Assembly (NCBI GenBank): GCA_964019415.1
Contig: OZ025889.1
Location: forward strand, 1,446,001 to 1,510,000
Direction of reading: 5' to 3'
From: Ianthella basta
Lineage: Eukaryota > Porifera > Demospongiae > Verongiida > Ianthellidae
DNA length: 64,000 bases
This document shows, in pieces, positions 28,707-54,553 of the stretch. The first letter of the stretch is position 1. Each line of letters starts with the position of its first letter. The notes beneath the pieces were generated by a model. The model was not told where the DNA came from. It was given only the letters and a program-made list of their open reading frames with translations, and ran no database searches. Position numbers and translations under genes: made by a program.

Positions 28707-29528
28707 ATGTCCGAAGCGAAGAAGCAGAAAACATCTGACGGTTGTGACGACATTTTCCACGACAATCCATCCACTTATCATGAATTTAATCAGAAGTTCA
28801 AAGTGGCTCTCGACTCCGCTCTCAATTCGCCCGATCGCTTCCAGCCGCTCTCCAAACGAGAAGAAAGAAGTGACCTTCCGCGTGAAGTGCTAAAGACACA
28901 GTACCGAGGTAGGTATCTCACCCTCCACCGTGGACTACAGATTCTCAAGACTCCAGAAGACCTGCTCGTCTACCAGCAGATGTTCTGGCACATTAAGCCA
29001 CGCACTGTCATTGAGCTGGGGACGTTTGTGGGCGGCTCTGCAATTTGGATGGGTGATATGCTTAAAACACTCGAACCAGACTGCCATTGTTACTCTGTGG
29101 ACTACGACCACTCACTGCTATCAGATGAAGCACGAAGAATGAAACCAGATAATGTCACCTTCCTTCTGGGCGACTGTCGTGTAATTGAAGAGACCCTGAC
29201 TCCAAAGATGCTCTCTGATCTGCCTCGTCCCATGATAATCATTGATGATGCACATATCAACATCTTCAACAACCTCTGCTACTTCCACAAGTACCTCCAA
29301 GTAGGTGACTACATAGTCCTGGAGGACACTAGCCCCGACATCCCAAGGGACCTGGGTATGGGACTCTACCTAGACTATGAAGTGCTTGGTGACACAAGGA
29401 TCCTCCAGGAGCTCAAGAGGTTTGTCGCTGAGCATGAGGAGGAGTATGCAGTGGACAGCTACTTTACTGACTTGTACGGCTACAACTTCTTTACAAACTG
29501 GAACTCCATCGTTCGGCGGATGAAGTAG
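28707..29528 (+). CDS. CmcI/rhamnosyl-O-methyltransferase-like SAM methyltransferase, copy A, 273 aa
   Basis: Intronless. The Met at 28707 (MSEAKKQKTSDGCDDIFHDN) matches the start of every other full copy and is preferred over the longer frame. Residues 79-118 (ILKTPEDLLVYQQMFWHIKP, then VIELGTFVGGSAIWMGD) fit the cephalosporin-hydroxylase/rhamnosyl-O-methyltransferase family. There, a conserved helix with VYQ precedes SAM-binding motif I (E103-L-G-T-x-x-G-G110). YSVDYD (D132) is the likely ribose-binding strand. IIIDDAH (D180, D181, H183) and VLEDTSPD (E206, D207) match the family's acidic metal/acceptor positions. No signal peptide, so it is probably cytosolic. The acceptor is unknown, perhaps a hydroxyl on a sugar or small molecule. 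It is the plus-strand member of the first duplication unit. Confidence 0.82.
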   Translation: MSEAKKQKTSDGCDDIFHDNPSTYHEFNQKFKVALDSALNSPDRFQPLSKREERSDLPREVLKTQYRGRYLTLHRGLQILKTPEDLLVYQQMFWHIKPRTVIELGTFVGGSAIWMGDMLKTLEPDCHCYSVDYDHSLLSDEARRMKPDNVTFLLGDCRVIEETLTPKMLSDLPRPMIIIDDAHINIFNNLCYFHKYLQVGDYIVLEDTSPDIPRDLGMGLYLDYEVLGDTRILQELKRFVAEHEEEYAVDSYFTDLYGYNFFTNWNSIVRRMK

Positions 29529-30250
29529 TGGAGACCTATTGAATTGTGCTGCTATATACTGCATTTAACAATACGTATGTAGCTAGCTTACTCTAATGTA
29601 CTCAGTGCTTTGCAGTGAAGAGTGGACTAAACCGTCCTATATAATGTGCACAATGCATATGTAGCTAGTCAGAAGCTGCACATATATTGAGTGATCTTCA
29701 ATCCACTTTACTTACCCCAAGTGCAAATGGGGGAGGGGGGAGGGGAGTAAATGCTTTGGTCTGTCATTCTAACAGCTTGTCATCCTTTGCATGTGCTGTA
29801 GATACAGCATAGCAGAAAAGTGTATGACAGTAATTTTGGTGTAGATGGCTGTGACCAATAATACTGTATGCATACACTTTATGCAGTTCCTGTCTTTAAA
29901 GGCACTTCCTGGGATCTGCTGCTTTGTCTGCGCACTTGAAGTACAGACAGTGCACTGAAATATGCGTCAGACGGCTGCCAGCAGTGAAGAGCAGGCTAGC
30001 CTTCGCATCCATATACATTGATCATGTAAGCACACGGAATCCGGATTAATTATAATATCACAGTTTTATAATGTAGCTTAATCAGTTGGCAGTTTGTGCA
30101 GGTCATCCTGTATTTCAATGCTAAGAATCCGAGCTAGCCTCCTACCTGTGCCATCTGTGAGGTACTAGGCTAAATCTGTGCATGCATCGATCTGCTTGTA
30201 CAGTGTCATGCAATGTGCGTATTGCTGTACAATTATAGTACAGTGGGACC

Positions 30251-30345
30251 TAGTCTGACATAGCCCATACCCACTTCCCCAGCCATTGTACTGCGTAAAT
30301 GGTGTCATACAAAATGGAGGCTGGAAATGGTCTGACTCGAGACTA
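30251..30345. mobile_element. TAGTCT-family MITE (also 34572-34666 and 37804-37899)
   Basis: It begins TAGTCTGACATAGCCCATAC and ends GGTCTGACTCGAGACTA, and directly abuts the following CAGTGGAACC-type element. Confidence 0.7.
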
Positions 30346-30527
30346 AGTGGAACCCGTCAAGACAGCCACCTGTGCATGGCATGGGCCGGCCAGTTCTAAC
30401 TGACCTATGTAGAGAGGTGGCTGCCCTACAGATGGAGATTGCAATGTTTTAGTGCTATTTCAGTGAGGATGACTGTTTTAGAGAGGTGGCTGCCTAGCAC
30501 AGTGACCACCTTAGACAGGTTCCACTG
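30346..30527. mobile_element. CAGTGGAACCTGTC-family MITE (also 34667-34848 and 37900-38081)
   Basis: It starts AGTGGAACCCGTCAAGACAG and ends CTTAGACAGGTTCCACTG. Two GAGAGGTGGCTGCC words are inside. Confidence 0.8.
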
Positions 30528-30781
30528 TATATAAATTATATCATGAAATGTGATCGATAAATGCACACACTGACTTGGACACTTGCACGTACTTGCACCT
30601 ACATGCATACTCACATCAGCCACACATAGCAATCTAGAAATACAAACCAGGCCTGTATAGTAAATATCGACTAGGCAAATACACCATGATTATGATCTAT
30701 GTAATCACATGTATTGTCAGAAGAGAAAGGACCTACCCTATATATATGCTGGACGTACTTTACACTTGTTACAGCTCATTG

Positions 30782-31603
30782 CTACTTCATCCGCCGAACG
30801 ATGGCATTCCAGTGAGAAATGCAGTTGTAGCCGTAGAAGTCAGTAAAATAGCTGTCCACTGCATACTCTTCTTCATTCTTGGCTACAAACTTCTTGAGCT
30901 CTTCTAGCTTATCTGTGTTGCCGACTTGCTCATAGTCTGAATACAGTCCCATACCCAGGTCCCTTGGGATGTCGGGGCTAGTGTCCTCTACGACTATGTA
31001 GTCACCTACTTGGAGGTACTTGTGGAAGTAGCAGAGGTTGTTGAAGATGTTGACATGGGCATCATCAATGATTATCATGGGGTGAGGTAGTTCAGAGAGC
31101 ATCTTTGGAGTCAGGGTCTCGTCAATCACACGACAGTCACCTAGAAGGAAGGTGACATTATCTGGTTTCATTCTTCGTGCTTCATCTGGTAGCAGTGAGT
31201 GGTCATAGTCCACAGAGTAATAATGGCAGTCTAGTTCGAGTGTTTTAAACATGTCTCCCATCCAAATTGCAGAGCCGCCAGCAAACGTCCCCAGCTCAAT
31301 GACAGTGCGTGGCTTAATGTGCCAGAACATCTGCTGGTAGACGAGCAGGTCTTCTGGAGTCTTAAGAATCTGCACTCCGCGATGGAGGGTGAGATATTTA
31401 CCTCGGTACTGTGCCTTGAGCACTGCCAGCGAGAGGTCACTTCTTTCTTCTCTTTTGGAGAGCGGCTGGAAGCGATCGGGTGAGTTGAGAGCGGAGTCGA
31501 GAGCTACTTTGAACTTCTGAGTAAATTCATGATAAGAAGATGGGTTGTCGTGGAAAATGTCGTCACAATCATCAGACGTTCTCTGCCTCTTCGCTTCGGA
31601 CAT
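30782..31603 (-). CDS. CmcI-like SAM methyltransferase, copy B, 273 aa
   Basis: Intronless, same length and motifs as copy A: VYQQMFWHIKP, VIELGTFAGGSAIWMGD, IIIDDAH, VVEDTSPD. Its last 20 residues follow the second sub-type (TDFYGYNCISHWNAIVRR) instead of copy A's DLYGYNFFTNWNS. It is nearly identical to copy D (one visible difference, HYYSVDYD against HCYSVDYD). It is transcribed toward copy A. Its 5' flank is interrupted 45 bases upstream of the ATG by the 949-bp element at 31650-32598. Confidence 0.82.
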   Translation of the reverse strand: MSEAKRQRTSDDCDDIFHDNPSSYHEFTQKFKVALDSALNSPDRFQPLSKREERSDLSLAVLKAQYRGKYLTLHRGVQILKTPEDLLVYQQMFWHIKPRTVIELGTFAGGSAIWMGDMFKTLELDCHYYSVDYDHSLLPDEARRMKPDNVTFLLGDCRVIDETLTPKMLSELPHPMIIIDDAHVNIFNNLCYFHKYLQVGDYIVVEDTSPDIPRDLGMGLYSDYEQVGNTDKLEELKKFVAKNEEEYAVDSYFTDFYGYNCISHWNAIVRRMK

Positions 31604-31855
31604 CTTGCTTATAGCTGGGTATGAAACTGGTGTCTGATGGGGTGACCTACCGTATGCGCTTTAATTTTCGCGAATTTGCAATTTTCGCGGTTTTAAATTC
31701 GCGGCTGCTGGGTACAGCGGTGCTGAAATATTCGCGGGTCAAATATTCGCGGATGTCTTTCGACATGTTGTCCTAGTGCCAGTGGGCGTCCCAATGCTTG
31801 CACAGGCAGTTTTTCCACGGGTTTATCATCCCCTATTCTTTTTCGGCTGGTCAGG

Positions 31856-32275
31856 TCAGCGCAATACGTCTTCTTCCGCCCTCTCACTGTGCTCTCCTTC
31901 AACTCTAAGCCTTGCTTTGTCATTAGTTAAATGACGTAAGATTGCTGCAATGCCATTTTCAGCGGCATACCTGGCGATCTTGGCTTTCTGGGTCTCTGTG
32001 ATGGTCTTGTCATATTGGCCCCTTTTCATCGACCCCATGGCCACCGATCCGCTTTGCAACAGCTGCAGCCACGAGCGTAGTGACCTCGACTTCTTTTGTA
32101 CAGCCTTCGCCATTGAGAGAGGAACAATCTTCTCCAACTCTGGAACGATGTCGCGCTTGGGTACCAAGTAAGGACGAACAGACATGCTTGTCGGCAGCAA
32201 GAACAACGGGTCGGGAACAAAGGAACTAGCGAATCGAGTTTCCCCGTAGCCAATTATCGCCGTTTTGTTACGCAT
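31856..32275 (-). CDS. Short ORF inside the TIR element, possible transposase or captured-gene remnant, 139 aa
   Basis: It starts MRNKTAIIGYGETRFASSF. A basic central part (SMAKAVQKKSRSLRSWLQLL) is followed by QYDKTITETQKAKIARYAAE, which looks like a helix-turn-helix start, then AILRHLTND. There is no D-D-E core, so it cannot be a full transposase. It may be the DNA-binding end of one, or an acquired host fragment. A near-identical copy lies at 36178-36597. Confidence 0.45.
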   Translation of the reverse strand: MRNKTAIIGYGETRFASSFVPDPLFLLPTSMSVRPYLVPKRDIVPELEKIVPLSMAKAVQKKSRSLRSWLQLLQSGSVAMGSMKRGQYDKTITETQKAKIARYAAENGIAAILRHLTNDKARLRVEGEHSERAEEDVLR

Positions 32276-32402
32276 GACGTCATTGATTGGCTTGAGCTGT
32301 GTACGTTCATTTGGCCAATTGGAGGAATGTCCAAATATTAGCGGACGAAATATTCGCGGATTGCTGCTGATCCCCGCGAAAACCGCGAACTTTATTACTT
32401 TC

Positions 32403-32563
32403 TATTTACGGTTGCTTGGAACGCCTACGGATTAGGCATTTCACGTGCTAGTCATTCGGACCAATGAAATTCGATGACGTCTCAAAAGAGCGCACATTTC
32501 ATTGGTCCGAATTAGTAGCACGTGAAATGCCTAATCCCTAGGCGTTCCAAGCAACCGTAAATA
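32403..32563. mobile_element. Nested palindromic MITE inside the TIR element
   Basis: TATTTACGGTTGCTTGGAAC at the left end pairs with the exact complement at the right. GGCATTTCACGTGCTA and TTCGGACCAATGAAAT also return inverted, giving arms of about 70 bases. The duplicate is at 36725-36885. Confidence 0.85.
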
Positions 32564-32618
32564 GACAGTAAACCCCGCGAAAATTAAAGCGCATACGGTA
32601 TGCGGTGGCCGCCCAACC

Positions 32619-32637
32619 TACTTCCGGCCGCCATCTG
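32619..32637 (-). promoter_or_regulatory. ETS + YY1 type composite site, displaced from copy B
   Basis: On the minus strand the word reads AGATGGCGGCCGGAAGTA, a YY1-like AGATGGCGG beside an ETS core CCGGAAGT. The same composite lies 73 bases upstream of copy F (42099-42117). Here the 949-bp element has pushed it about 1 kb from the ATG of copy B. The duplicate is at 36941-36959. Confidence 0.55.
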
Positions 32638-33207
32638 TAAAACCGTTCACTTTCGGAAATGTATGGTCGACTCTAGCTCTGTCGCTGTCATCAGTGTCTG
32701 TATGGCTGCATGCTTTAGAGTATTTTGAATTTTCACAGGACTTAAGATTCCTATTTGCACGAAATGAAATCTCGCGAATTCTTTTTGCACGATTACTCAA
32801 TCCTTTAATACGTATGTCATGCCTTATGTCCTTATAGCTATAATTGTACACAAGTGGTATAGATAGGATAGCAGGTCATGCTATCCTTTATCTGGAAAGG
32901 AGGTGTGTGGGCGGTGTACTCGGCCTACATAGCCCTACAATGCTAGCACTGGTCCCCGTGTATAAGGGAAAAACAAAGGCCAAGGGTCACAAACTAATTG
33001 TATCAGCTAATCGCTACAGTTTATATAGCTAAACACTTATACAGCTACAGTTTTAGTTTTGGTGTAGATGGCTGTGACCAATAATACTGTATGCATACAC
33101 TTTATGCAGTTCCTGTCTTTAAAGGCACTTCCTGGGATCTGCTGCTTTGTCTGCGCACTTGAAGTACAGACAGTGCACTGAAATATGCGTCAGCACTTCC
33201 GCGTGAA

Positions 33208-33849
33208 GTGCTAAAGACACAGTACCGAGGTAGGTATCTCACCCTCCACCGTGGACTACAGATTCTCAAGACTCCAGAAGACCTGCTCGTCTACCAGCAG
33301 ATGTTCTGGCACATTAAGCCACGCACTGTCATTGAGCTGGGGACGTTTGTGGGCGGCTCTGCAATTTGGATGGGTGATATGCTTAAAACACTCCAACCAG
33401 ACTGCCATTGTTACTCTGTGGACTACGACCACTCACTGCTATCAGATGAAGCACGAAGAATGAAACCAGATAATGTCACCTTCCTTCTGGGCGACTGTCG
33501 TGTAATTGAAGAGACCCTGACTCCAAAGATGCTCTCTGATCTGCCTCGTCCCATGATAATCATTGATGATGCACATATCAACATCTTCAACAACCTCTGC
33601 TACTTCCACAAGTACCTCCAAGTAGGTGACTACATAGTCCTGGAGGACACTAGCCCCGACATCCCAAGGGACCTGGGTATGGGACTCTACCTAGACTATG
33701 AAGTGCTTGGTGACACAAGGATCCTCAAGGAGCTCAAGAGGTTTGTCGCTGAGCATGAGGAGGAGTATGCAGTGGACAGCTACTTTACTGACTTGTACGG
33801 CTACAACTTCTTTACAAACTGGAACTCCATCGTTCGGCGGATGAAGTAG
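33208..33849 (+). pseudogene. CmcI-like methyltransferase, copy C, 5'-truncated
   Basis: Identical in layout to residues 61-273 of copy A but lacking the first 60 residues, because the duplication breakpoint lies inside the coding region. No ATG precedes motif I in frame nearby; the open stretch begins at a GTG. Differences from copy A are few (LQPDC for LEPDC, ILKEL for ILQEL). Motif I and all downstream motifs remain. It may be transcribed but probably gives no complete enzyme. Confidence 0.8.
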
Positions 33850-35103
33850 TGGAGACCTATTGAATTGTGCTGCTATATACTGCATTTAACAATACGTATG
33901 TAGCTAGCTTACTCTAATGTACTCAGTGCTTTGCAGTGAAGAGTGGACTAAACCGTCCTATATAATGTGCACAATGCATATGTAGCTAGTCAGAAGCTGC
34001 ACATATATTGAGTGATCTTCAATCCACTTTACTTACCCCAAGTGCAAATGGGGGAGGGGGGAGGGGAGTAAATGCTTTGGTCTGTCATTCTAACAGCTTG
34101 TCATCCTTTGCATGTGCTGTAGATACAGCATAGCAGAAAAGTGTATGACAGTAATTTTGGGTGTAGATGGCTGTGACCAATAATATTGTATGCATGCACT
34201 TTATGCAGTTCCTGTCTTTAAAGGCACTTCCTGGGATCTGCTGCTTTGTCTGCGCACTTGAAGTACAGACAGTGCACTGAAATATGCGTCAGACGGCTGC
34301 CAGCAGTGAAGAGCAGGCTAGCCTTCGCATCCATATACATTGATCATGTAAGCACACGGAATCCGGATTAATTATAATATCACAGTTTTATAATGTAGCT
34401 TAATCAGTTGGCAGTTTGTGCAGGTCATCCTGTATTTCAATGCTAAGAATCCGAGCTAGCCTCCTACCTGTGCCATCTGTGAGGTACTAGGCTAAATCTG
34501 TGCATGCATCGATCTGCTTGTACAGTGTCATGCAATGTGTGTATTGCTGTACAATTATAGTACAGTGGGACCTAGTCTGACATAGCCCATACCCACTTCC
34601 CCAGCCATTGTACTGCGTAAATGGTGTCATACAAAATGGAGGCTGGAAATGGTCTGACTCAAGAGTAAGTGGAACCCGTCAAGACAGCCACCTGTGCATG
34701 GCATGGGCCGGCCAGTTCTAACTGACCTATGTAGAGAGGTGGCTGCCCTACAGATGGAGATTGCAATGTTTTAGTGCTATTTCAGTGAGGATGACTGTTT
34801 TAGAGAGGTGGCTGCCTAGCACAGTGACCACCTTAGACAGGTTCCACTGTATATAAATTATATCATGAAATGTGATCGATAAATGCACACACTGACTTGG
34901 ACACTTGCACGTACTTGCACCCACATGCATACTCACATCAGTCACACATAGCAATCTAGAAATACAAACCAGGCCTGTATAATAAATATCGACTAGGCAA
35001 ATACACCATGATTATGATCTATGTAATCACATGTATTGTCAGAAGAGAAAGGACCTACCCTATATATATACTGGACGTACTCTACACTTGTTACAGCTCA
35101 TTG
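33850..35103. other. Intergenic, duplicate of 29529-30781, no gene seen
   Basis: It carries the same MITE pair (34572-34848) and no coding signal. Confidence 0.6.
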
Positions 35104-35925
35104 CTACTTCATCCGCCGAACGATGGCATTCCAGTGAGAAATGCAGTTGTAGCCGTAGAAGTCAGTAAAATAGCTGTCCACTGCATACTCTTCTTCATTC
35201 TTGGCTACAAACTTCTTGAGCTCTTCTAGCTTATCTGTGTTGCCGACTTGCTCATAGTCTGAATACAGTCCCATACCCAGGTCCCTTGGGATGTCGGGGC
35301 TAGTGTCCTCTACGACTATGTAGTCACCTACTTGGAGGTACTTGTGGAAGTAGCAGAGGTTGTTGAAGATGTTGACATGGGCATCATCAATGATTATCAT
35401 GGGGTGAGGTAGTTCAGAGAGCATCTTTGGAGTCAGGGTCTCGTCAATCACACGACAGTCACCTAGAAGGAAGGTGACATTATCTGGTTTCATTCTTCGT
35501 GCTTCATCTGGTAGCAGTGAGTGGTCATAGTCCACAGAGTAACAGTGGCAGTCTAGTTCGAGTGTTTTAAACATGTCTCCCATCCAAATTGCAGAGCCGC
35601 CAGCAAACGTCCCCAGCTCAATGACAGTGCGTGGCTTAATGTGCCAGAACATCTGCTGGTAGACGAGCAGGTCTTCTGGAGTCTTAAGAATCTGCACTCC
35701 GCGATGGAGGGTGAGATATTTACCTCGGTACTGTGCCTTGAGCACTGCCAGCGAGAGGTCACTTCTTTCTTCTCTTTTGGAGAGCGGCTGGAAGCGATCG
35801 GGTGAGTTGAGAGCGGAGTCGAGAGCTACTTTGAACTTCTGAGTAAATTCATGATAAGAAGATGGGTTGTCGTGGAAAATGTCGTCACAATCATCAGACG
35901 TTCTCTGCCTCTTCGCTTCGGACAT
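35104..35925 (-). CDS. CmcI-like SAM methyltransferase, copy D, 273 aa
   Basis: Duplicate of copy B with one visible residue change. All motifs are intact (VIELGTFAGGSAIWMGD, HCYSVDYD, IIIDDAH, VVEDTSPD). Its 5' flank is broken by the duplicated TIR element in the same way as copy B. Confidence 0.82.
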   Translation of the reverse strand: MSEAKRQRTSDDCDDIFHDNPSSYHEFTQKFKVALDSALNSPDRFQPLSKREERSDLSLAVLKAQYRGKYLTLHRGVQILKTPEDLLVYQQMFWHIKPRTVIELGTFAGGSAIWMGDMFKTLELDCHCYSVDYDHSLLPDEARRMKPDNVTFLLGDCRVIDETLTPKMLSELPHPMIIIDDAHVNIFNNLCYFHKYLQVGDYIVVEDTSPDIPRDLGMGLYSDYEQVGNTDKLEELKKFVAKNEEEYAVDSYFTDFYGYNCISHWNAIVRRMK

Positions 35926-35971
35926 CTTGCTTATAGCTGGGTATGAAACTGGTGTCTGATGGGGTGACCTA

Positions 35972-36920
35972 CCGTATGCGCTTTAATTTTCGCGAATTTG
36001 CAATTTTCGCGGTTTTAAATTCGCGGCTGCTGGGTACAGCGGTGCTGAAATATTCGCGGGTCAAATATTCGCGGATGTCTTTCGACATGTTGTCCTAGTG
36101 CCAGTGGGCGTCCCAATGCTTGCACAGGCAGTTTTTCCACGGGTTTATCATCCCCTATTCTTTTTCGGCTGGTCAGGTCAGCGCAATACGTCTTCTTCCG
36201 CCCTCTCACTGTGCTCTCCTTCAACTCTAAGCCTTGCTTTGTCATTAGTTAAATGACGTAAGATTGCTGCAATGCCATTTTCAGCGGCATACCTGGCGAT
36301 CTTGGCTTTCTGGGTCTCTGTGATGGTCTTGTCATATTGGCCCCTTTTCATCGACCCCATGGCCACCGATCCGCTTTGCAACAGCTGCAGCCACGAGCGT
36401 AGTGACCTCGACTTCTTTTGTACAGCCTTCGCCATTGAGAGAGGAACAATCTTCTCCAACTCTGGAACGATGTCGCGCTTGGGTACCAAGTAAGGACGAA
36501 CAGACATGTTTGTCGGCAGCAAGAACAACGGGTCGGGAACAAAGGAACTAGCGAATCGAGTTTCCCCGTAGCCAATTATCGCCGTTTTGTTACGCATGAC
36601 GTCATTGATTGGCTTGAGCTGTGTACGTTCATTTGGCCAATTGGAGGAATGTCCAAATATTAGCAGACGAAATATTCGCGGATTGCTGCTGATCCCCGCG
36701 AAAACCGCGAACTTTATTACTTTCTATTTACGGTTGCTTGGAACGCCTACGGATTAGGCATTTCACGTGCTAGTCATTCGGACCAATGAAATTCGATGAC
36801 GTCTCAAAAGAGCGCGCATTTCATTGGTCCGAATTAGTAGCACGTGAAATGCCTAATCCCTAGGCGTTCCAAGCAACCGTAAATAGACAGTAAACCCCGC
36901 GAAAATTAAAGCGCATACGG
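35972..36920. mobile_element. 949-bp TIR element, second copy (by segmental duplication)
   Basis: Same ends, same TA flanks, same internal ORF (36178-36597) and nested palindrome as 31650-32598. Its identical position relative to copy D shows it was copied with the segment rather than inserted again. Confidence 0.9.
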
Positions 36921-38335
36921 TATGCGGTGGCCGCCCAACCTACTTCCGGCCGCCATCTGTAAAACCGTTCACTTTCGGAAATGTATGGTCGACTCTAGCT
37001 CTGTCGCTGTCATCAGTGTCTGTATGGCTGCATGCTTTAGAGTATTTTGAATTTTCACAGGACTTAAGATTCCTATTTGCACGAAATGAAATCTCGCGAA
37101 TTCTTTTTGCACGATTACTCAATCCTTTAATACGTATGTCATGCCTTATGTCCTTATAGCTATAATTGTACACAAGTGGTATAGATAGGATAGCAGGTCA
37201 TGCTATCCTTTATCTGGAAAGGAGGTGTGTGGGCGGTGTACTCGGCCTACATAGCCCTACAATGCTAGCACTGGTCCCCGTGTATAAGGGAAAAACAAAG
37301 GCCAAGGGTCACAAACTAATTGTATCAGCTAATCGCTACAGTTTATATAGCTAAACACTTATACAGCTACAGTTTTAGTTTTGGTGTAGATGGCTGTGAC
37401 CAATAATACTGTATGCATGCACTTCATGCAGTTCCTGTCTTTAAAGGCACTTCCTGGGATCTGCTGCTTTGTCTGCGCACTTGAAGTACAGACAGTGCAC
37501 TGAAATATGTGTCAGACGGCTGCCAGCAGTGAAGAGCAGGCTAGCCTTCGCAGCCATATACATTGATCGTGTAAGCACACGGAATCCAGATTAATTATAA
37601 TATCGCAGTTTTATAATGTAGCTGGCTATATTTAATCAGTTGGCAGTTTGTGCAGGTCATCCTGTATTTCAATGCTAAGAATCCGAGCTAGCCTCCTACC
37701 TGTGCCATCTGTGAGGTACTAGGCTAAATCTGTGCATGCATCGATCTGCTTGTACAGTGTCATGCAATGTGTGTATTGCTGTACAATTATAGTACAGTGG
37801 GACCTAGTCTGACATAGCCCATACCCACTTCCCCAGCCATTTTATTGCATAAAGGGTGTCATACAAAATGGAGGCTGGAAGTGGTCTGGCTCGAGACTAA
37901 GTGGAACCCGTCAAGACAGCCACCTGTGTATGGCATGGGCCGGCCAGTTCTAACTGACCTATGTAGAGAGGTGGCTGCCCTACAGATGGAGATTGCAATG
38001 TTTTAGTGCTATTTCAGTGAGGATGACTGTTTTAGAGAGGTGGCTGCCTAGCACAGTGACCACCTTAGACAGGTTCCACTGTATATAAATTATATCATGA
38101 AATGTGATCGATAAATGCACACACTGACTTGGACACTTGCACGTACTTGCACCTACATGCATACCCACATCAACCATGCATAGCAATCTAGAAATACAAA
38201 CCAGGCCTGTATAGTAAATATCGACTAGGCAAATACACCATGATTATGATCTATGTAATCACATGTATTGTCAGAAGAGAAAGGACCTACCCTATATATA
38301 TGCTGGACGTACTCTACACTTGTTACAGCTCATTG
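36921..38335. other. Intergenic, no gene seen
   Basis: End of duplication unit 2, then the start of the diverged third copy, with MITEs at 37804-37899 and 37900-38081. Confidence 0.5.
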
Positions 38336-39157
38336 CTACTTCATCCGCCGAATGATGGCATTCCAGTGAGAAATGCAGTTGTAGCCGTAGAAGTCAGTAA
38401 AGTAGCTGTCCACTGCATACTCCTCCTCATTCTTGGCTACAAACTTCTTGAGTTCTTCTAGCTTATCTGTGTTGCCGACTGGCTCAAAGTCCGAGCACAG
38501 CCCCATACCCGGGTGCAATCCAATGTCAGGGCTAGTGTCCTCTACGACTATGTAGTCACCTACTTGGAGGTACTTGTGGAAGTAGCAGAGGTTGTTGAAG
38601 GTGTTGACATGGGCATCATCCATGATTATCATGGGACGAGGTAGTTCAGAGAGCATCTTTGGAGTCAGGGTCTCGTCAATCACACGACAGTCACCTAGAA
38701 GGAAGGTGACATTATCTGGTTTCAGCCTCCGTGCTTCATCTGGTAGCAGTGAGTGGTCATAGTCCACAGAGTAACAGTGGCAGTCTAGTTCGAGTGTTTT
38801 AAACATATCACCCATCCAAATTGCAGAGCCACCAGCAAACGTCCCCAGCTCAATGACAGTGCGTGGCTTAATGTGCCAGAACATCTGCTGGTAGACGAGC
38901 AGGTCTTCTGGAGTCTTAAGAATCTGCACTCCGCGATGTAGGGTGAGATATTTACCTCTGCACTGCGCCTTCAGCATTGCCACGGGGATCTCACTTCTTT
39001 CTTCTCTTTTGGATAGCGGCTGGAAGCGATCGGGCGATTTGAGCGCGGAGTCGAGAGCTACTTTGAACTTCTGAGTAAATTCATGATAAGAGGATGGGTT
39101 GTCGTGGAAAATGTCGTCACAACCGTTAGACGTTTTCTGCCTCTTCGCTTCGGACAT
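38336..39157 (-). CDS. CmcI-like SAM methyltransferase, copy E, 273 aa
   Basis: Intronless; the Met at 39157 (MSEAKRQKTSNGCDDIFHDN) matches the other copies. Motifs are retained (VIELGTFAGGSAIWMGD, IIMDDAH, VVEDTSPD). It differs from B/D mainly after DTSPD (IGLHPGMGLCSDFEPVGN) and in LKSPDRF and MLKAQCRGKY. It shares these features with copy F, so E and F form a sub-group. Confidence 0.82.
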   Translation of the reverse strand: MSEAKRQKTSNGCDDIFHDNPSSYHEFTQKFKVALDSALKSPDRFQPLSKREERSEIPVAMLKAQCRGKYLTLHRGVQILKTPEDLLVYQQMFWHIKPRTVIELGTFAGGSAIWMGDMFKTLELDCHCYSVDYDHSLLPDEARRLKPDNVTFLLGDCRVIDETLTPKMLSELPRPMIIMDDAHVNTFNNLCYFHKYLQVGDYIVVEDTSPDIGLHPGMGLCSDFEPVGNTDKLEELKKFVAKNEEEYAVDSYFTDFYGYNCISHWNAIIRRMK

Positions 39158-41204
39158 GTTGCTGTAGCTGGGCTTCGTATTGGTGTCTAATGTGGTCACC
39201 TATAGCTATATACAGACGTTTCGGGTTGGTTGTCCACACCGGGCACCGGGTACAGGACGAATCATGGTATTATATACATAAACATAAGCAGTATTGCTGT
39301 ATAAAATGTCTCCTCGCAATCTATGTCAACAGTAGCTTTTGCAATTATACCGTAAGTACGTGTATGAATCCGTATAATATCGTGCGAGCGTTTCCCGGAT
39401 CCCGGTGCACGGCGTGGACAAGCGATTCAAAAAGGTCTGTATATAGGCGGGCCGCCTCCAACCATAGATACACCTGTTGCAAGATTGTGTGAATCCACTG
39501 TAGAGGAAAACCCCTCTATCTATGCTCCAACCCACTTCCGCCGGCCATCTTAAAATCCGTTCACTTCGAAAATGTATACGGTCGACTCTGTCTCTGTCAT
39601 CAGTATCTGTCCCTTCACCATATATGAATGTGGCAGTTGGTGGTGGGGCACTTGCAAGAAAGTGCACCTTCACTTGGACAGCTGTTCTGCTGCCTCTGCA
39701 AAGTGTCCCTAAAGTTAATATTGGAAACTTTGTACCTATGCAATAATCGATGTATAACTCAGTCAATAATTAGCTATTATGTTCTAATTGTTAGAACACA
39801 TAGCTAATTAGGGGGCTGGGCCATGAGAGTACTAGTCTGGCTAGCTAGACCACTGCACATCGCAACAGTCTAATCTGGCTCACGAGAGAAAAGTAATTGG
39901 AGTGTTGGGCTGTTTTATAGCTGATCTGACTCTGGAACATACATGCTAAGTGCTGGCTAGTGCATGCATATGTACATGGAGTAATCATATGCAGTGTGTA
40001 CGCAGAAGTTGTTTATCTGCTGAATGGCCTCTACGTATCTACTGTAATTAAGGGTTCAATTGTCTACTTGTTAAAATCGACAAGGGAGTTGCTTACAATA
40101 AGTCACTGTAGATGCAAGGTTGAGAGATATTCGCACTAGATATTTTGCCTATGTATATATACACCATGCAGCTTACATGCTGCATATACACCAGTATTAG
40201 TGTCTCGTGATCAGTGAGCTAGGCTGCATGGGGAATGAAATCCCAGTCCACTGAGGGCATGCATGTTGCAACCAGTGATCACGCACCTTCCACCAGTTAT
40301 CATCCAAATTACAATATGTAAATGGAAGCCACAAACTGCTGTTTCGCCTTAATTGTGACTCATCAGTGTGGTGCATGTACTGATGCCTGATCATGCATGC
40401 ATGCGTGATCCTGGTACTTGCCATCAATAGTCCCCCACCCTAGGCATCGCACTGTGACATCAATATAATTATACTGGTGTAACAGTATAACAGTCTGATA
40501 TATGTAAGCATAATTATATAGTGATCCTTCTATTAATCTATTTCGGGTATATTGATTGTGTAAAGACAATTAAGTATGTAATTTATGCAACTGGCTATAA
40601 TTAATTCATTCACTGTTGGCACATATAAACTTATTGGTAAATTGGTGTGAAATTCCAAAAATTGACATGAACTGTAATTTTCGCATTTTGCTCAAGTATA
40701 TAAGCCACGCCCCTTGAAAATGGCAGCTGACTACATGCACACTGATGGACCTTCACTGAACACTTTGGAAATGAAACGGGTGGTAGTACTCACTCCCTTC
40801 TCCTCTAGATCTGTCCTGGTACAAGTATGAGGTTGTCTTGTTGGGGTATTGTGCTAATACTCTCAGCGTTGAGCAAACTATAGCTAACTAGCTACCAGTA
40901 GCCAGTCTTCTCTTCGCCTGTTGCATGATATTTGATATCAATATGCGAAGAGGAGTGTATATACATTTATATATAAGAATATGACTGTGCATGAAATTAG
41001 TTATGCACATGCATGCATGCACATATACCCATGTACACCCATACAAACTATATAATTGTGTATTAATACAAACTCTTTATAGGCACATGAATTATGATCA
41101 TGATAAACAGAATTACAACTTAATGCCTACATAGATAGAAATGTAAACACAGTAGAAGGCCCTGCCCTATGCTGAATTTACTCTATATTTGCAACAACTC
41201 TTCT
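39158..41204. other. Intergenic, no gene seen
   Basis: A relative of the ETS/YY1 upstream word lies near 39530 (CACTTCCGCCGGCCATCTTA), about 370 bases from copy E. Between them is unique sequence that may be another insertion. A TAGTCT-like fragment lies at about 39815-39890. No coding signal. Confidence 0.5.
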
Positions 41205-42026
41205 CTACTTTATCCGCCGAACGATGGCATTCCAGTGGGAGACGCAGTTGTAGCCGTAGAAGTCAGTAAAGTAACTGTCCACTGCATACTCCTCCTCATG
41301 TTTGGCTACAAACTTCTTGAGCTCTTCTAGCTTATCTGTGTTGCCGACTTGCTCAAAGTCCGAGCACAGTCCCATACCCGGGTGCAGTGGCATGTCAGGG
41401 CTAGTGTCCTCTACGACTATGTAGTCACCTACTTGGAGGTACTTGTGGTAGTAGCAGAGGTTGTTGAAGGTGTTGACATGGGCATCATCCATGATGATCA
41501 GGGGATGAGGCAGTTCAGAGAGCATCTTTGGAGTCAGGGTCTCGTCAATCACACGACAGTCACCTAGAAGGAAGGTGACATTATCTGGTTTCATTCTTCG
41601 TGCTTCATCTGGTAGCAGTGAGTGGTCATAGTCCACAGAGTAACAGTGGCAGTCTAGTTCGAGTGTTTTAAACATGTCTCCCATCCAAATTGCAGAGCCA
41701 CCAGCAAACGTCCCCAGCTCAATGACAGTGCGTGGCTTAATGTGCCAGAACATCTGCTGGTAGACGAGCAGGTCTTCTGGAGTCTTAAGAATCTGCACTC
41801 CGCGATGGAGAGTGAGATATTTACCTCTACTCTGCGCCTTCAGCACTGCCACGGGGATGTCACTTCTTTCTTCTCTTTTGGATAGCGGCTGGAAGCGATC
41901 GGGCGATTTGAGAGCGGAGTCGAGAGCTACTTTGAACTTCTGAGTAAATTCATGATAAGAGGATGGGTTGTCGTGGAAAATGTCGTCACAACCGTTAGAC
42001 GTTTTCTGCCTTTTCGCTTCAGACAT
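41205..42026 (-). CDS. CmcI-like SAM methyltransferase, copy F, 273 aa
   Basis: Intact and intronless, with VIELGTFAGGSAIWMGD, HCYSVDYD, IIMDDAH and VVEDTSPDMPLHPGMGL. It ends NAIVRRIK. Its 5' flank is the uninterrupted form of the family promoter: GTGACCTATGAGGTGGCC, then the ETS/YY1 composite 73 bases upstream of the ATG. This makes it the best reference for the ancestral upstream arrangement. Confidence 0.83.
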   Translation of the reverse strand: MSEAKRQKTSNGCDDIFHDNPSSYHEFTQKFKVALDSALKSPDRFQPLSKREERSDIPVAVLKAQSRGKYLTLHRGVQILKTPEDLLVYQQMFWHIKPRTVIELGTFAGGSAIWMGDMFKTLELDCHCYSVDYDHSLLPDEARRMKPDNVTFLLGDCRVIDETLTPKMLSELPHPLIIMDDAHVNTFNNLCYYHKYLQVGDYIVVEDTSPDMPLHPGMGLCSDFEQVGNTDKLEELKKFVAKHEEEYAVDSYFTDFYGYNCVSHWNAIVRRIK

Positions 42027-42098
42027 GTTGCTTTAGCTGGGTCTCACCCGAGGCTCACCGGTGTCTGATGTGGTGACCTATGAGGTGGCCGCCCAACC

Positions 42099-42117: not shown

Positions 42118-43341
42118 TAAAACTGATCACTTTCGGAAATGTATGGTCGACTCTAGCTCTGTCGCTGTCATCAGTGTCTGTATGACTGCTTTAGAGTATT
42201 TTGAATTTTTTGCAGTACTTAAGATTCCTATTTGCACGAAATGAAATCTCGCGAATTCCTTTTGCACGATTACTCAATCATTTATATATGTCATGCCTTA
42301 TGTCCTTATAGCTATAATTGTACACAAGTGATATAGATAGTATAGCAGGCCATGCTATTCTTTATCTGGAAAGGAGGTGTGTGGGCGGTGTACTCGGCCT
42401 AGTGCGGATCGAGAAACTTTTATGACTGGTTTCCAACACATGAAGGTATAGCTATAAGGAAGCATAGACATAAGACTGATACATGCAAATACTAGCCAGA
42501 GGTGATCTGACCAGTTTCTGGAAACCTTGGAAACACCCCTGGATCCGCCCTTGACAGCCTACATAGCCCTACAATGCTAGCACTGGTCCCAGTGTATAAG
42601 GGCAAAACAAGGTCAAGGGTCACAAACTAATTGTATTATAGCTAATCGCTACAGTTTATATAGCTGAACACTTATACAGCTACAGTCTTGGTTACGGATG
42701 CATGGATGGGCAGACGCGTGATGCGTGACCTCTTGCTCATTAGTACTATATGGTCACTTGCATCCATATGCACTTTAGCTATAGGGTTATATATAAGGAA
42801 CAGGAATTAATAATCACTGCCCCCCCCCCCCCTTCCCAAGTGCCGGTACACCCAGATACAGTGGTTTCACAATTTCTAGTCCCAATTGACATTTGTGCAT
42901 TGCACTCAATCACGTGAGTAAAGTATTGGAACGATAGGCTTGCACGTGCTTTGATCTGTGCACATGTAGATCGAAGCACGTGCGAGCCTATTGTTCCAAT
43001 ACTTTATACTCACATGATCAAGTGTATGCACAATTGTCAATTGGGACTAGAAATTGTGAAACCACTGTAGCATTATAATTAGAAGCTGCATTATATACAC
43101 TTGAAGTCCCTACCACACTAGAGGATTACTCTTCTGTACATTTTATACTTACTGTGGACTTAGTACTGATTAATTAGCCCTGGTGATACTCATGTTGCAA
43201 TACAATTAATCACGTTTATACCATTAAGTGCATAATATATGGCCAACGCTACAATATAAAGTAGCCTTTAGGCATCCACACAGTGGAATGGTGTCCTCTA
43301 TATACATGCAGTTCAACCCTTGTCCACCCTTGCTGTGAAAA
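42118..43341. other. Intergenic, one MITE, no gene seen
   Basis: 5' flank of copy F resembling 32640-33060, a short unrelated insertion near 42400-42560, then the palindromic element at 42859-43067. Confidence 0.5.
42859..43067. mobile_element. Palindromic MITE, CAGTGGTTTCACAATTTC ends, TA duplication
   Basis: The left arm CAGTGGTTTCACAATTTCTA returns as its exact complement at the right end. Arms pair almost throughout (CAATTGAC, TATTGGAACGATAGGC, GCACGTGC), leaving a short centre. TA is on both sides (42857-8 and 43068-9). Confidence 0.92.
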
Positions 43342-48044
<4,703 letters not shown>

Positions 48045-48124
48045 TATTACTTTCTTCACTTTTGAGCGAGCACTAAACTTCTGTTCGTGCCGGTCCACAG
48101 AACATCCGCCATTTAATATTTCCT

Positions 48125-48138
48125 GTCACTATGGTAAC
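48125..48138. promoter_or_regulatory. RFX X-box (GTCACTATGGTAAC)
   Basis: GTCACTATGGTAAC fits every position of the ciliary X-box consensus RYYNYYATRRNRAC. It lies 81 bases upstream of the IQCG/DRC9 start codon. RFX factors drive ciliary genes in animals through this site, which agrees with the product. Confidence 0.75.
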
Positions 48139-48139
48139 C

Positions 48140-48215
48140 TCTGACATGGCCGCCTGTGGTGTGGTTGTGGGTGAAGACATTAGCCAAATCTGAACCCCGT
48201 GATCTGGGCGATTGT

Positions 48216-48260
<45 letters not shown>

Positions 48261-49542
48261 TCGTGCGTGCGTGCGTGCTGGTTTGTGGTGTGATGCATGT
48301 GTGTATTCAACGCCAGCTTCACTTCCATGACGCATTCACGTGTCTGTGTGTTTATATTTTATGTTGTCAGGAGGGTGTATCCTGTCAATGGTATTGGTTT
48401 TATGCATTGTCAAATTTGTGTTTTGTCACCTATTGATATTGTTTGGGCTGTGACGAAGAACATGAAGCACTGAATATGCCAGCAGCGTCATCCTGTCCAG
48501 GAGGAGTTGGCATGAGTGCGGACACCACTTGATCTCTGAGCCTATACTGTGTGTGTATGTGTACATGTGTGTGTGTGTGTTATGTGGGCTGTGATGAACG
48601 TTACAGTCTGGCAGGCTATGGACCTGTGTAGCCCTGAACAGGCTTGGTCCACTTGCAAGCACCAACAATGCTTTGCTGTGGGTCGATGGAGATATCCACT
48701 TGATCTGAGCTCACATTAATTTAATAGTTAAGATGGTTATAATATTTCAAATTTAACTTAAACTTTAATTATATATTCCGATATGACTGTTGCAACATAA
48801 GAATTATGTGCAGGGTGTCCATGATATTAATTGTCTGTGAGTCTATTCCACGTTGTTAGAGTCTTGTGTCTTAGTTTGGGTACCTGTGGGAGTATCTGTG
48901 ATTGGAACAGTCTGTGCAGGGAAGGGGGAGAGGAGGGGGGCATTGCAATGTGGTAGTCGTAGAGTATATACACAGTGCAGTCCACAATCCATGGCAGGTC
49001 ACTGCACACAGCAGGGAGACCCCTCTACACTGGTACAAATACGTCATGCGCCGCTAGATCCAACTTCTCAAGGGGATGGAATAGAAGCCTTCTCCTCTGT
49101 CCTCATGCAATGGTGCATGGGGAGCTGGGTCTAGCAGCCAGACAAAATGCACCTGAAACATGCAGCCACTTATATAGGTAGCCATGCAAGTCCTATAATA
49201 CATTGTAGGTATGTATACACTCCACGCTCCATTGCACCACAGTATACATTAATCTAGCTTGCTAGACCCACTTCACCTCTGGGTGCTTACACACTGGAAA
49301 GGCCGAGCGCCTAGGTGTGTAGTGGGTCTAGCTCGCTAGGCTAGATAAATATGTGTATGAAACTTAAATAACAGTTGGTCAGTAGTCACTATCTGTACAT
49401 TTTCATACAATGATGGCACATAATTCCATAAGGCAGTAGGTGAGTGCATAAATTACCAGTCAAAATCAACAGTGCCGTGTACAATATATTAGACCACAGT
49501 GCGTGTGCAATAATCACGCTGTATAAGTAAGTCCTCACTCAC
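48140..49542. other. Between IQCG and the last identified PARL exon, no confident gene
   Basis: It holds a (GT)n run (48216-48257) and a TAGTCT-like palindrome (49253-49345). The C-terminal PARL exon should lie in the right part, but I could not identify it by frame or similarity. A plus-strand microframe (MAACGVVVGEDISQI) at 48147 is too short to call. Confidence 0.4.
49253..49345. mobile_element. Palindromic MITE, CTAGCTTGCTAGACCCAC ends
   Basis: AATCTAGCTTGCTAGACCCA pairs with GTGGGTCTAGCTCGCTAGGC/CTAGA at the other end. It is a relative of the TAGTCT group. Confidence 0.65.
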
Positions 49543-52500
49543 AGCCCGAAGAGCACCCCTCCAAGGTGAGCAGCGTGGTCAAAGAACCTCCAGCCCATCA
49601 CAAGGCCTGCCATGTCCAGTGCTATGACACTGCCCAGGGCCTATGAGGTGAGGTGATGTGTGGATTTGGGCACGCAGGGAAGGACAAGTGTGCAGTGAAA
49701 CACTGCATATAATGTGTGTGTGGAGACACGTCTGTGTGCGTGTGTAATTTCAAGCTTTCTCACAAGTACACATACAGAGAATACTCTGTGTATGCAGGAT
49801 AGGTGTAGACTTTCATTCGACTGACAGCTATGCACTGTATCACAGTGGTTTATATAGTGGAGCCTGTCTAAGACAGCCACCTGTGGGCCAGTTTTGTAAC
49901 TGGCCTTTATAGAGAGGTGGCTGCTCTACAGAGGTAGACTGCAATGCTTTAGTGCTATTTGGGACCAGGGAGGCTGGCAATTTAGAGAGGTGGCTGCCTA
50001 ACATAGTGACCGTCTTAGACAGGTTCCACTGCACACCACACAGAAGTTACACACAGCTGCTCACCCACACAGCTGGAATCGGTATGAAAGGAAGGAATAT
50101 GATGTAGAAGTGACTGTCAGGATGCTGGTAGGTGATGGAGGTGACTACTGCCATTAGAGCACCTGACTGGAGGGGAGGGGAGGGAGAGGGGGAGGGGAAG
50201 GGGAGTGAACAAGCTGTTACTCAGTGCTCTAGAGTACATCGTAACAACGAGAATCATCACTCAGCTCACTCACTCAAAGTATTGGAACACTAAGTGAAAA
50301 TCACTTGCACACACCAATGCCACTCACTCATACACAACATGCTGAAGTGGGTGGGGCCACATGCCCCTCAGCATGTGGTCCCACCCACTTCAACATGAAC
50401 AAGCAAGCTCTCCCCCATCACTATACTCTACACATGCTACCCTCCCACACACAGACAAGGCCCTCACCCCACTTCACACCACACTCACAGCACCAAGTGA
50501 TGGTAGAGCAAGGCCACGAGCTGTCTTCGCAATATGCCCCACGCATGAAGCAAACACTCCAGCAGAAATGAAATATGGCACAGACACCTCAGGAGTGTAC
50601 ATAGCTAAAGGAATGGACAGAATGACACAAGAATTCAAGCCCAAATTCCAGACACCCCCACCTCATTTCATCAATTATCTAGTGCTGCGTGACTGTCAGT
50701 ATACAAAGTCATCATGTTCTTATCAAGTTCATGACTGTTCAACTTAATTACACTACTAAAGATAGAGGTTGGACAGCTGGGAGTGACTCCACGTGATAGG
50801 ATTGCTAGGTACATAATGTATGGAACTCAGTACCAGAAAGAAAGAGAAGAATAAGATTGCAGGACAGCAGGGAGAAGTGAGTGCTTAGTCTCGTGTAGCC
50901 AACCGCCATTTCTGCTCCGACTTGCCCTCCACTGCCTTGGAGGCGGAGTTACAGCAAAATGGTGGTCGGCTATGTGAGACTAATGAGTGCTACACAATAG
51001 TGTGCAATGTGGTACCGCTAGACAAGAGTAATATTCAAGAATGTAGTTAGGTACATACTGTATCTTCAAGGGTAGCCATACCGATATAAGGGAGAAAGAA
51101 GTTCCACAAGACGACCATGTTTATCAAGAGGTGCCACAGATCAATATGACTGAAGTTGGACAGCAGCAATGGCAGAACACTCTCTATAATGAAGGAAAGA
51201 ACACCAGACCACAACGCTTTGCACAGACACCTCCCACAATGACATGTACATATATTTCACAGAACATAGGTGCTCTATTGCAGTAAGAAACCTCATGTAT
51301 ATATATGCACAAAGAGACATACATCTATTCCAGACACATTTAGGCCAGTTTGGGGCAGGATCTGGTGTCCCGATCAGAGAGGCATCCTTATTTTCAAGGT
51401 AGTTTAGCATATAGCTCTCCAAATAGATGGGGCAGTAGGCACTGTTCTCATGGGAGTTCGAGAGGTGTCCTAAATTCAGCTACGCACTGTATGTAGCTGA
51501 ATGTTAGATGGGACCACTGTACCAGCAACACTCACTGGAGTAGGGGTCTGCTAGAAACCTCCTAGCCATCATCGGCTGCAGAAAGGGCAATCGCCACATC
51601 AGAAACACAAGACAGTTCACACCAATCAGACCTATGAGGGAGAGGAGGGGGGGGGAGGGGTGTACCCAGTGGGGGGGTACCCAGCGGGGGTGTGCCCAGC
51701 GGGGGGGTACCCAGTAGGGGGTGTGCCCAGCGGGGGGGTACCCAGCAGGGGGTGTGCCCAGCACGGGGGGTACCCAGCGGGTGTGTGTGTGTGCCCAGTG
51801 TAGTTGAGCTAGAGTGCATTCTACACTCCACTGGATATTATGGAATACCACACATGTTAATATGTCAAGACCATCAAATCAAGACCAAGACCAAGACCAT
51901 GACTAACAGTAATATAGGTAAGCACTGAATAGTCTTACCAACTACTGTCTTTGCTGAGTCTGTCAACATGTTCCATTGCCGATGGATCTACTTGGAGAGG
52001 GGAATGAGAAGAGACAACCATACACAGGAGCTAATATGAATATATCAGCACACATTTTAGCAGTAGTCTGTAGTAAGAATGGTCTGTTTTGGTCACTCAA
52101 TGCAGCTAATGTATGAGAAACTGGAGGTCAACCTAAGGCAAGAAGCCTCCCCTGGCCAGCCCAAAAACAGTGTCAACACAGCACACTGCATCTCTGCGTG
52201 GTTCCGCCTGTCTATTGTAGGCAGTTAGTCTGGGGTCTTAGTGGCCTCAGACCCAGTCTCAATTTCCATTACGACTTCTAGAGTGGAAGTTGGAACGGAC
52301 AATAGGGAGTGTAGTGTTATGCTATGTAATTGTATTCATTGTACATTTGTTATAAAAAATCGTACAGCCATAACCCTTTACTTTTTTTACCTAGGGAAAG
52401 CCTTGCAAGGAGTCACAATATTATGACCATGACAAGCACCCACCTCTCCAAAGAGTCCCTTTCTTTCTTTCATCCAGGGTCGGGGCCTGCCCCATTGCCC

Positions 52501-53557
52501 CTCCCTCTTTCTTTTTATGTTGTGGTAGACAAAACTGGCACTAAAACTAACCACACACACCTGTAGAATGGGGCACAATAAATAGACTAACACCTTAGTT
52601 ACAAACAGACTGATATTGTAAAGGCTCATTCACATAATCCACACATCCATCTTGACAAAGATCCTAGATCCTATCAGTGATTGCGATCATCATGACATTC
52701 ACTGAACACAAGTCTTTCAAGAGGCGCAATATCCAGTGATTAGCCCTTGTTTAACCTAGCCCAGCCTGACCGTTGCAGTGGCTTACTGCAATGAACTGAC
52801 CTCTCAACAAGTAGGCATGTGCAATGACCGAACCGACCTCTCAAGAGTATACTTGTAGCCATCTACAATGTGATACTGTAGATGCTCAGTAGTGTAGGTA
52901 GGTAAGTAAGGGTACGTGTGTGATTCTGGAGTGGTTGTAACTGAGACCTTTGTGGTCGAAACATCTTACATTCTGCATTGTACAACAATTTTATGTTCTG
53001 CTACGTCTCTGTTGCTTTATCTCATTGATTTATGGTACACTGTACTTGTTGTCTAATTGGTTGGGGAAGATTTTCAAGCATTAATCACGTGGTAGGTTCT
53101 TTTCAATGAGCAAAACGTTTCGGCCCCAAAGGGCCTTCTTACAAAGTGAGGTACAAAAACTGTACTTTGTATAGCTATATGCTATGAAAGGTTGGTGCTC
53201 ATTGCACCTGCATACAATATGTAGCTACAGCACTTGACATTAGATTGCTTTCACTCCCATAGTATGTAACACATATACAGCAAGACTAAGCACTCTCTCC
53301 ACCCCCCCCCCCTCCCCCCACACACACACCCTTACCCCTGCTGTGAAAGCTGCTGGTTTCCACAGAATGTGATACCATGACAACTTTACTGGGCTGTGAG
53401 CACTGGAGCTTATCCTGTCAGACACTGGAGGAGTGGACTTCCTGCGTACTATGGTCCTACCAACCCGATATTGTGCTAACAGACAGCTATCGCTCTTCAG
53501 TAGTGGAGTTATCCCTCTACTCATGTAATGAAAGCAACATTGCCAGCTCCTCTGCAT
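49543..53557 (-). CDS. PARL: PARL, mitochondrial inner-membrane rhomboid protease (C-terminus and one N-terminal part not resolved)
   Basis: Exons on the minus strand are 53336-53557, 51939-51987, 51536-51631, 51082-51183, 50489-50604, 50065-50166 and 49543-49640. From 51987 on they join in phase. The N-terminal exon ([15 protein letters not shown] ... [11 protein letters not shown]) looks like a mitochondrial presequence leading into the PARL-specific first membrane segment. Rhomboid landmarks are clear: [62 protein letters not shown] with the catalytic Ser in GxSG, and [14 protein letters not shown] with the catalytic His. PARL cleaves PINK1, PGAM5 and other inner-membrane proteins. Sequence equivalent to about 40 residues after FTAG, and the short tail after GGVLFGL, were not found. 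They are probably small exons I missed. The gene is head-to-head with methyltransferase copy G. Confidence 0.9.
49855..50031. mobile_element. CAGTGGAACCTGTC-family MITE in a PARL intron
   Basis: It starts AGTGGAGCCTGTCTAAGACA and ends TCTTAGACAGGTTCCACTG. Two GAGAGGTGGCTGC words are inside. Confidence 0.8.
50885..50982. mobile_element. TAGTCT-family MITE in a PARL intron
   Basis: TAGTCTCGTGTAGCCAACCG at the left pairs with GGTCGGCTATGTGAGACTA at the right. It has a short GC-rich centre. Confidence 0.8.
51640..51800. repeat. G-rich minisatellite, GTACCCAGCGGGGG units
   Basis: About eight units alternating GGGGGGGTACCCAGC and GGGGTGTGCCCAGC in the PARL intron just before the exon at 51536-51631. 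The proline-rich minus frames across it are by-products. Confidence 0.88.
51988..53335. other. PARL intron region; one PARL segment should be hidden here
   Basis: No exon with convincing PARL similarity was found. A frame at about 52190 on the minus strand ([10 protein letters not shown] after a TGCAG acceptor) is a weak candidate. Two hairpin-plus-GAAAC motifs (52915-53000 and 53105-53150) look like retroelement relics. Confidence 0.4.
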
Positions 53558-53735
53558 TTCACAGACGTATTCGAAAGTGAGCAAGTGAAGATTCACTGGT
53601 TTACAAAATTAATGCGTAACGTAGCTACGGCAGCCATTTTTGCGGAAGTTACAAACCGGCGGCACTCACCACGTCCATGTGAAATTCCCAAACTATTGGT
53701 TGCAAGTGTAGCCAACGCGCTGTAACTGACCCATC

Positions 53736-54553
53736 ATGTCTGAAGCAAAGAGGCCGAAGACTGCTACAAACGACCTTTTTGAGGACAACCCGTCCTCTTA
53801 CCGCGAATTCAAGCAGATCTTTCAAAAAACTCTCGACTCCGCTCTCAACTCCCCCGATCGTTTCCAGCCGCTCTCCAAGCGAGAAGAGAGAAGTGACCTC
53901 CCACGAGAAGCGCTGAAGGCCCAGCACAGAGGTAAATACCTAGCCGTCCATCGTGGGCTGCAGCTTCTCAAGACTCCAGAAGACCTGTTCATCTACCAGC
54001 AGATGTTCTGGCACATTAAGCCACGCACTGTCATTGAGCTGGGGACGTTTGTTGGTGGCTCTGCAATTTGGATGGGTGATATGTTGAAAACTCTTGAAGT
54101 GGACTGCCATTATTACTCTGTGGACTATGACCACTCACTGCTATCAGATGAAGCACGAAGAATGAAACCAGATAATGTCACTTTCCTTCTGGGTGACTGT
54201 CGTATGCTTGAAGAGACCCTGACTCCAAAGATGCTCTCTGAACTGCCTCGTCCCCCTTGATCCTCATTGAAGATGCACACATCAACATCTTCAACAACCT
54301 CTGCTACTTCCACAAGTACCTCCAAGTAGGTGACTACATTGTGATAGAGGACACTAGCCCTGACCTCCCTAAGGACCTAGGAATGGGACTGTGCACGGAT
54401 TACGAGGTGGTTGGTGACACTCGGGTCCTTGACGAGCTCAAGAAGTTTGTAGCCAAACATGAGGAGGAGTATGCAGTGGACAGCTACTTTACTGACTTGT
54501 ACGGCTACAACTTCTTTACAAACTGGAATGCCATCGTTCGGCGGATGAAGTAG
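53736..54553 (+). pseudogene. CmcI-like methyltransferase, copy G, frameshifted
   Basis: Intronless and clearly the most diverged copy (MSEAKRPKTATNDLFEDN; LLKTPEDLFIYQQMFWHIKP; VIELGTFVGGSAIWMGD). At about 54250-54260 a C-run (CGTCCCCCTTGATC) shifts the frame, so the protein stops after ELPRPP, and the rest (IEDAHINIFNN ... NAIVRRMK) continues in another frame to 54553. Both halves are well preserved, so the break is recent or is a base-calling error in the homopolymer. It lies 178 bases from the PARL start, on the opposite strand, 11.7 kb from copy F. Confidence 0.8.

Follow-up and report, generated by a model that had tools for sequence, protein, structure and literature searches.

The window analysed here is a 64,000-nucleotide stretch of the genome of the sponge Ianthella basta (C22:1446001-1510000; assembly of 209 Mb in 96 contigs). 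Within it, seven sites coding for a CmcI-type methyltransferase were observed at 28707-54553, as claimed in the original prediction, and all seven exceeded the cut-off of the Pfam family RMNT_CmcI (PF04989), copy G with its 5' part only. Five of the seven have an uninterrupted ATG-to-stop frame of 273 codons, which bears out the claim that the copies lack introns: A (28707..29528, plus strand), B (30782..31603, minus), D (35104..35925, minus), E (38336..39157, minus) and F (41205..42026, minus). The further claim of one 273-residue enzyme type shared by the seven copies holds for these five and fails for C and G. Copy C (33196..33849, plus) is a 5'-truncated copy of A in which a spacer repeat replaces the codons before about codon 57, with no in-frame ATG ahead of the QMFWH block. 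Copy G (53733..54553, plus) keeps its start and is frameshifted, so that residues 1-176 and 171-273 lie in separate frames. Both are probable pseudogenes. The two C-terminal sub-types described earlier are indeed on opposite strands, FFTNWN on the plus strand (A, C and G) and CISHWN on the minus strand (B, D and E), with the exception that the minus-strand copy F reads CVSHWN. The array contains inverted arms of 826 nt with 90 % identity, and B, D, E and F match query A with E-values of 1e-157 to 1e-166, which excludes chance as an explanation for the cluster.

The expected affinity to the CmcI family was found both by sequence and by predicted fold. With PF04989 (cut-off 23.2 bits), A scored 66.7 bits (3.1e-18) and F 72.2 bits. 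By sequence, A matched CmcI in the PDB over core residues 74-211 (1.8e-25), and the E-value was 1.1e-38 when a 30-row profile was used. The rhamnosyl O-methyltransferase equivalog NF045824 gave 58.1 bits for A and 63 bits for F, under its 400-bit cut-off. Structure prediction had been proposed as a check on the locus; the AlphaFold2 model has a mean predicted local distance difference test score (pLDDT) of 82.7 and a predicted template-modelling score (pTM) of 0.83, with residues 1-12 and 217-224 unsure. When this model was compared with the PDB using Foldseek, ranks 1-16 were CmcI chains only (probability 1.00; template-modelling score 0.66-0.72 by target length). In a 30-sequence alignment, D181 and E206 show no variation and D207 almost none, and they align with D160, E186 and D187 of CmcI. 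D160 is named in the PDB titles of the Mg forms of CmcI, and we take E186 and D187 to be metal-site residues as well. Compared with CmcI of the cephamycin pathway (PDB 2br3, 2br4 and 2bm8; PF04989), the sponge protein is thus alike in core, fold and D/E/D metal site. It differs in that its ~70 N-terminal residues and its C-terminal part fall outside the sequence-matched core, identity in the superpositions is 26-28 %, and the sponge genes form a multigene array in an animal host.

When the sponge genome was searched with protein A, 12 rows were obtained, or 10 loci after grouping, of which at least seven are intact and at least three broken. Besides the array, contig C14 has an intact copy (75 % identity to A) and, some 1 kb away and oppositely oriented, a broken one, and contig C2 has one intact copy with 45 % identity to A. 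All seven intact copies are intronless, including the one on C2. The PF04989 profile gave nine matches in this genome, all nine over the cut-off. Nonsynonymous divergence (dN) is well below synonymous divergence (dS) both for A and B (dN 0.067, dS 0.292) and for A and the C14 copy (dN 0.151, dS 0.741), and these values indicate that the copies are under purifying selection.

Two units of ~4.32 kb (28875..33193 and 33196..37515) follow each other in the array and are 99.5 % identical over 4,320 columns. The left end of the unit cuts copy A and the right end lies within a 140-bp spacer repeat, from which it appears that C was truncated at birth and that D was copied from B (99.8 % nucleotide identity over 273 codons). 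As established by this alignment, C and D were made by a 4.3-kb tandem duplication, and we infer that the older array had the order A-B-E-F. A ~950-bp element (31648-32600), bounded by perfect terminal inverted repeats of 25 bp and containing a hairpin whose arms measure 76 nt, lies just upstream of copy B, with a second copy in unit 2, and resembles a small DNA transposon.

B and E have 1.8 kb in common at 94.9 % identity, and some flank is common to the pairs B-E, B-F and E-F of the minus-strand type. The homology between A and B starts 4 nt before the ATG and stops at the stop codon, and the 500-bp flanks of A vs B and A vs F are at shuffle level on both sides (30 shuffles). As only 19 of 98 fourfold sites differ between A and B, neutral flanks of equal age should still align. 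Differences in the coding sequence (CDS) are also unevenly spread: columns 241-300 of the A-B alignment contain one and columns 661-720 contain 21. Uneven constraint along the protein could add to this. The ending of A-B and A-F homology at the CDS edges suggests gene conversion or CDS-limited copying, and the data fit both. Retroposition as the sole cause was considered and set aside: a retrocopy should carry its 3' untranslated region, yet beyond the stop codon A does not resemble B or F, and gene conversion is therefore preferred, without proof.

The eukaryotic side of our searches was the sponge genome itself, and the other collections consisted of genome contigs, plasmids, viral contigs and phages. 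Outside the sponge genome, CmcI-type relatives came only from bacteria and viral contigs in these collections. A contig scan with a sponge-only alignment confirmed none of 75 stretches, and a scan with the mixed alignment A2 yielded 98 relatives, the analysis going on with the best 80. Cyanobacteria make up most of the top bacterial relatives among these 80 of 98 (33-40 % identity over most of the protein), which also include an uncultured Planctomycetaceae metagenome-assembled genome (MAG; L040) and a Methylococcaceae MAG. In the viral collection, a single-query scan confirmed no relative; the viral contigs gave 49 relatives in all, and the phage collection no match. The close methyltransferase type is rare among the genomes sampled. 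Of 386 genomes drawn from the phylum of L032, the sponge profile matched 5 below 1e-55 and 45 at 1e-3, and at 1e-20 the counts were 1 of 392 for the phylum of L040 and 3 of 398 for that of L047 (each count takes in the genome used as centre).

An 89-row quick tree was drawn from six sponge rows (D and the broken copies excluded), a Scytonema row from a plasmid record and 82 of 129 loci; 25 viral loci and 22 that were near-duplicates, short, or L034 (a stop in the match frame) were left out. The sponge copies formed a clade (support 98), joined the planctomycete MAG (88) and fell inside a 25-row clade of sponge, cyanobacterial and planctomycete rows (96). All 19 viral rows were placed outside this clade, and a viral source is therefore not favoured. 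In a 44-row tree, a hand-picked subset of the 89 rows, the sponge copies were monophyletic among the rows sampled (100/97), grouped with the Planctomycetaceae MAG (94/92) and then with an 18-row clade of 17 cyanobacterial rows and one Methylococcaceae row (98/93). An approximately unbiased (AU) test in which the copies of the window and of C14 were joined to the 18-row clade, C2 being excluded, gave p 0.043. The phylogeny called for at the outset, here with bacterial, viral and own-genome rows, nests the animal copies among bacterial rows in both trees.

The cyanobacterial CmcI-like proteins (Symploca, Calothrix, Okeania, Moorena, Scytonema and others) have at most 40 % identity over residues 43-272, and their S-x-R-E region and C-terminal YGYN block can be aligned with the sponge protein. 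Unlike the sponge genes, theirs have a low G+C content at third codon positions (GC3), occur as one or two close copies per genome among the rows sampled, and in several cases stand with TauD, PhyH, Rieske, cupin or DUF3326 genes; one lies beside an annotated nonribosomal peptide synthetase (NRPS) gene. Neighbourhoods were counted at 19 loci (the 18-row clade and L040), with 2-oxoglutarate (2OG)-type oxygenases called by similarity to three chosen proteins. A 2OG-type oxygenase was observed at 7 of the 19, and a 2OG-type or Rieske oxygenase at 10 of the 19. In Scytonema, the CmcI-like gene follows a JmjC/Cupin_8 gene and faces the annotated NRPS gene. DUF3326, an Orn/Lys/Arg-decarboxylase-like gene, a second methyltransferase and a cupin are common to several loci. 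In one set of cyanobacterial loci (L036, L041, L044, L045, L069, L033 and L042), the decarboxylase-like gene and the second methyltransferase are present in all seven, DUF3326 in six (not L069) and the cupin in six (not L044), and some also have PhyH or Rieske genes. We know of no named product for this recurring gene group. At L040, the planctomycete gene adjoins open reading frames (ORFs) that by eye resemble ectoine-synthesis genes and a TRAP-type transporter.

As for the host side, parts of a NUBPL/ParA-like domain occur in each of the three minus-strand frames at 16.2-26.1 kb, and a multi-exon gene therefore flanks the array upstream. The claim that every neighbouring gene is split by introns was borne out for this one gene only. 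GC3 is 0.57-0.59 in the seven intact copies and 0.49-0.59 in four nearby ORFs, compared with 0.28-0.38 in six cyanobacterial relatives and 0.75 in the planctomycete.

Taken together, we consider it likely that the copies are a resident demosponge family that goes back to a CmcI-type gene acquired once from bacteria and that has since multiplied and partly decayed. The acquisition from bacteria looks old. Several observations weigh against this reading. The AU test does not reject a grouping of the sponge copies with a rhizobial group (p 0.148) or with the 18-row clade without the L040 MAG (p 0.074), and long branches meet in the 44-row tree. As these rival placements survive, the donor is not fixed, and the predicted bacterial origin is upheld as an affinity in the trees and not as an exact source. 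Whole-length root-mean-square deviation (rmsd) exceeds 14 Å in 13 of the 16 CmcI superpositions (3.7-5.7 Å in the other three, over shorter alignments). The downstream flank of A vs G scores 28 against a shuffled maximum of 25 (30 shuffles), a possible trace of flank similarity. Nine of the 19 relatives' loci have no 2OG-type or Rieske oxygenase on the available stretch. The ratio of observed to expected CpG is 0.61-0.71 in the intact copies and 0.31, 0.34, 0.40 and 0.84 in nearby ORFs; the copies lie between the low and high values, so composition is not a full match. Finally, the sponge being the sole eukaryote sampled, there is room for an old eukaryotic family that descended vertically and was lost elsewhere.

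This last point leads to the alternative of a CmcI-like family long present in eukaryotes, either handed down vertically or passed from eukaryote to eukaryote (e.g. from algae) and lost in most lineages, whose copies became intronless by intron loss or retroposition. The long branch that separates the sponge clade from bacteria is consistent with it, and the CDS-limited homology could fit retrocopying. We nevertheless regard it as unlikely, since the nearest rows found are bacterial and introns are absent from all seven intact copies, even from the one on C2 with its 45 % identity.

Concerning function, family, fold and metal-site residues together make a SAM (S-adenosylmethionine)- and Mg-dependent O-methyltransferase the most likely reading, as judged from sequence and model. 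Each intact protein would hold SAM in a Rossmann-type domain, bind Mg2+ through the D181/E206/D207 site and transfer the methyl group onto a hydroxyl in a small molecule or a glycan, and the CDS would be homogenised between copies through gene conversion or copied without flanks. The target hydroxyl would probably be set by an oxygenase, by analogy with the order proposed in an excerpt of PMC6097109, in which CmcJ hydroxylates first and CmcI then methylates; in the stretches scanned near the array, no such partner gene was seen. A resident family whose enzyme no longer methylates, or methylates a macromolecule in place of a small molecule or glycan, seems quite improbable: residues 217-224 are poorly modelled and the tRNA methyltransferase TrmR is among the more distant sequence and fold hits, but against it stand the retained metal-site residues, the top fold hits, which are CmcI throughout, and a dN far under dS.

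That the array is a bacterial contaminant or an artefact of assembly is hardly credible. A falsely duplicated haplotype could look like the C/D unit (99.5 % identical to the A/B unit over the 4,320 columns) but would concern copies C and D only, the unit boundaries (a gene cut at one end, a repeat at the other) are judged a better fit to a real tandem duplication, and a stray bacterial piece is argued against by the 6.2-Mb contig that contains the array beside the multi-exon NUBPL-like gene, by the diverged copies on C2 and C14 and by a GC3 near that of the four nearby ORFs. Copies on three contigs, host-like GC3 and the multi-exon neighbour indicate integration in host chromosomes and speak against the contaminant sequence considered in the original prediction.

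The neighbourhoods of the cyanobacterial relatives make small-molecule tailoring the better guess for the role in the sponge. The sponge might have taken a tailoring methyltransferase of the cyanobacterial-cluster type, now grown into a multicopy family under gene conversion, to methoxylate metabolites or glycans of its own making, a proposal that we offer tentatively and hold to be rather doubtful. If true, some O-methylated sponge compounds would be the work of the animal and not of its symbionts. Whether sponge natural products are made by sponges or by their microbes is a long-standing question, and an enzyme from a bacterial tailoring family that is resident, under selection and present in several copies is a testable candidate on the animal side. 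The array also presents an apparently transferred gene that has duplicated, decayed and possibly been homogenised in an animal chromosome while still intron-free.

Parts of the report on the Amphimedon queenslandica genome (PMC4784904) describe bacterial-type enzymes with methyltransferase among the commonest Pfam domains, and some peptidase genes that are clustered, suggesting tandem duplication. Gained introns are stressed there for prokaryote-like genes, whereas the copies described here have none. The words 'cephalosporin' and 'hydroxylase' are absent from the main text of that paper. Among the titles found in the literature, none concerned a CmcI/cephalosporin-hydroxylase-type gene in an animal genome, and PF04989 gave no paper.

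Elsewhere in the window, the stretch that separates F from G (42.4-52.3 kb) was scanned in six frames and gave no Pfam family over the cut-off. The split-neighbour search yielded no match in a single plus frame of 16.2-26.1 kb, and a single plus frame of 2.0-11.9 kb gave only two PDB matches, which were taken for low-complexity. For a 575-codon single-ORF gene (14395-16122), the HMGL-like match is weak and under the Pfam cut-off, and tblastn gave no relative on plasmids; an integrase-core (rve) fragment just under the Pfam cut-off (13119-13787) is probably part of a retroelement. On the mitochondrial contig, an ORF at L026 4877-5113 (translation table 4) was recognised by eye as atp9, a mitochondrial gene indicative of demosponges, and cox1 is read through nine TGA codons.

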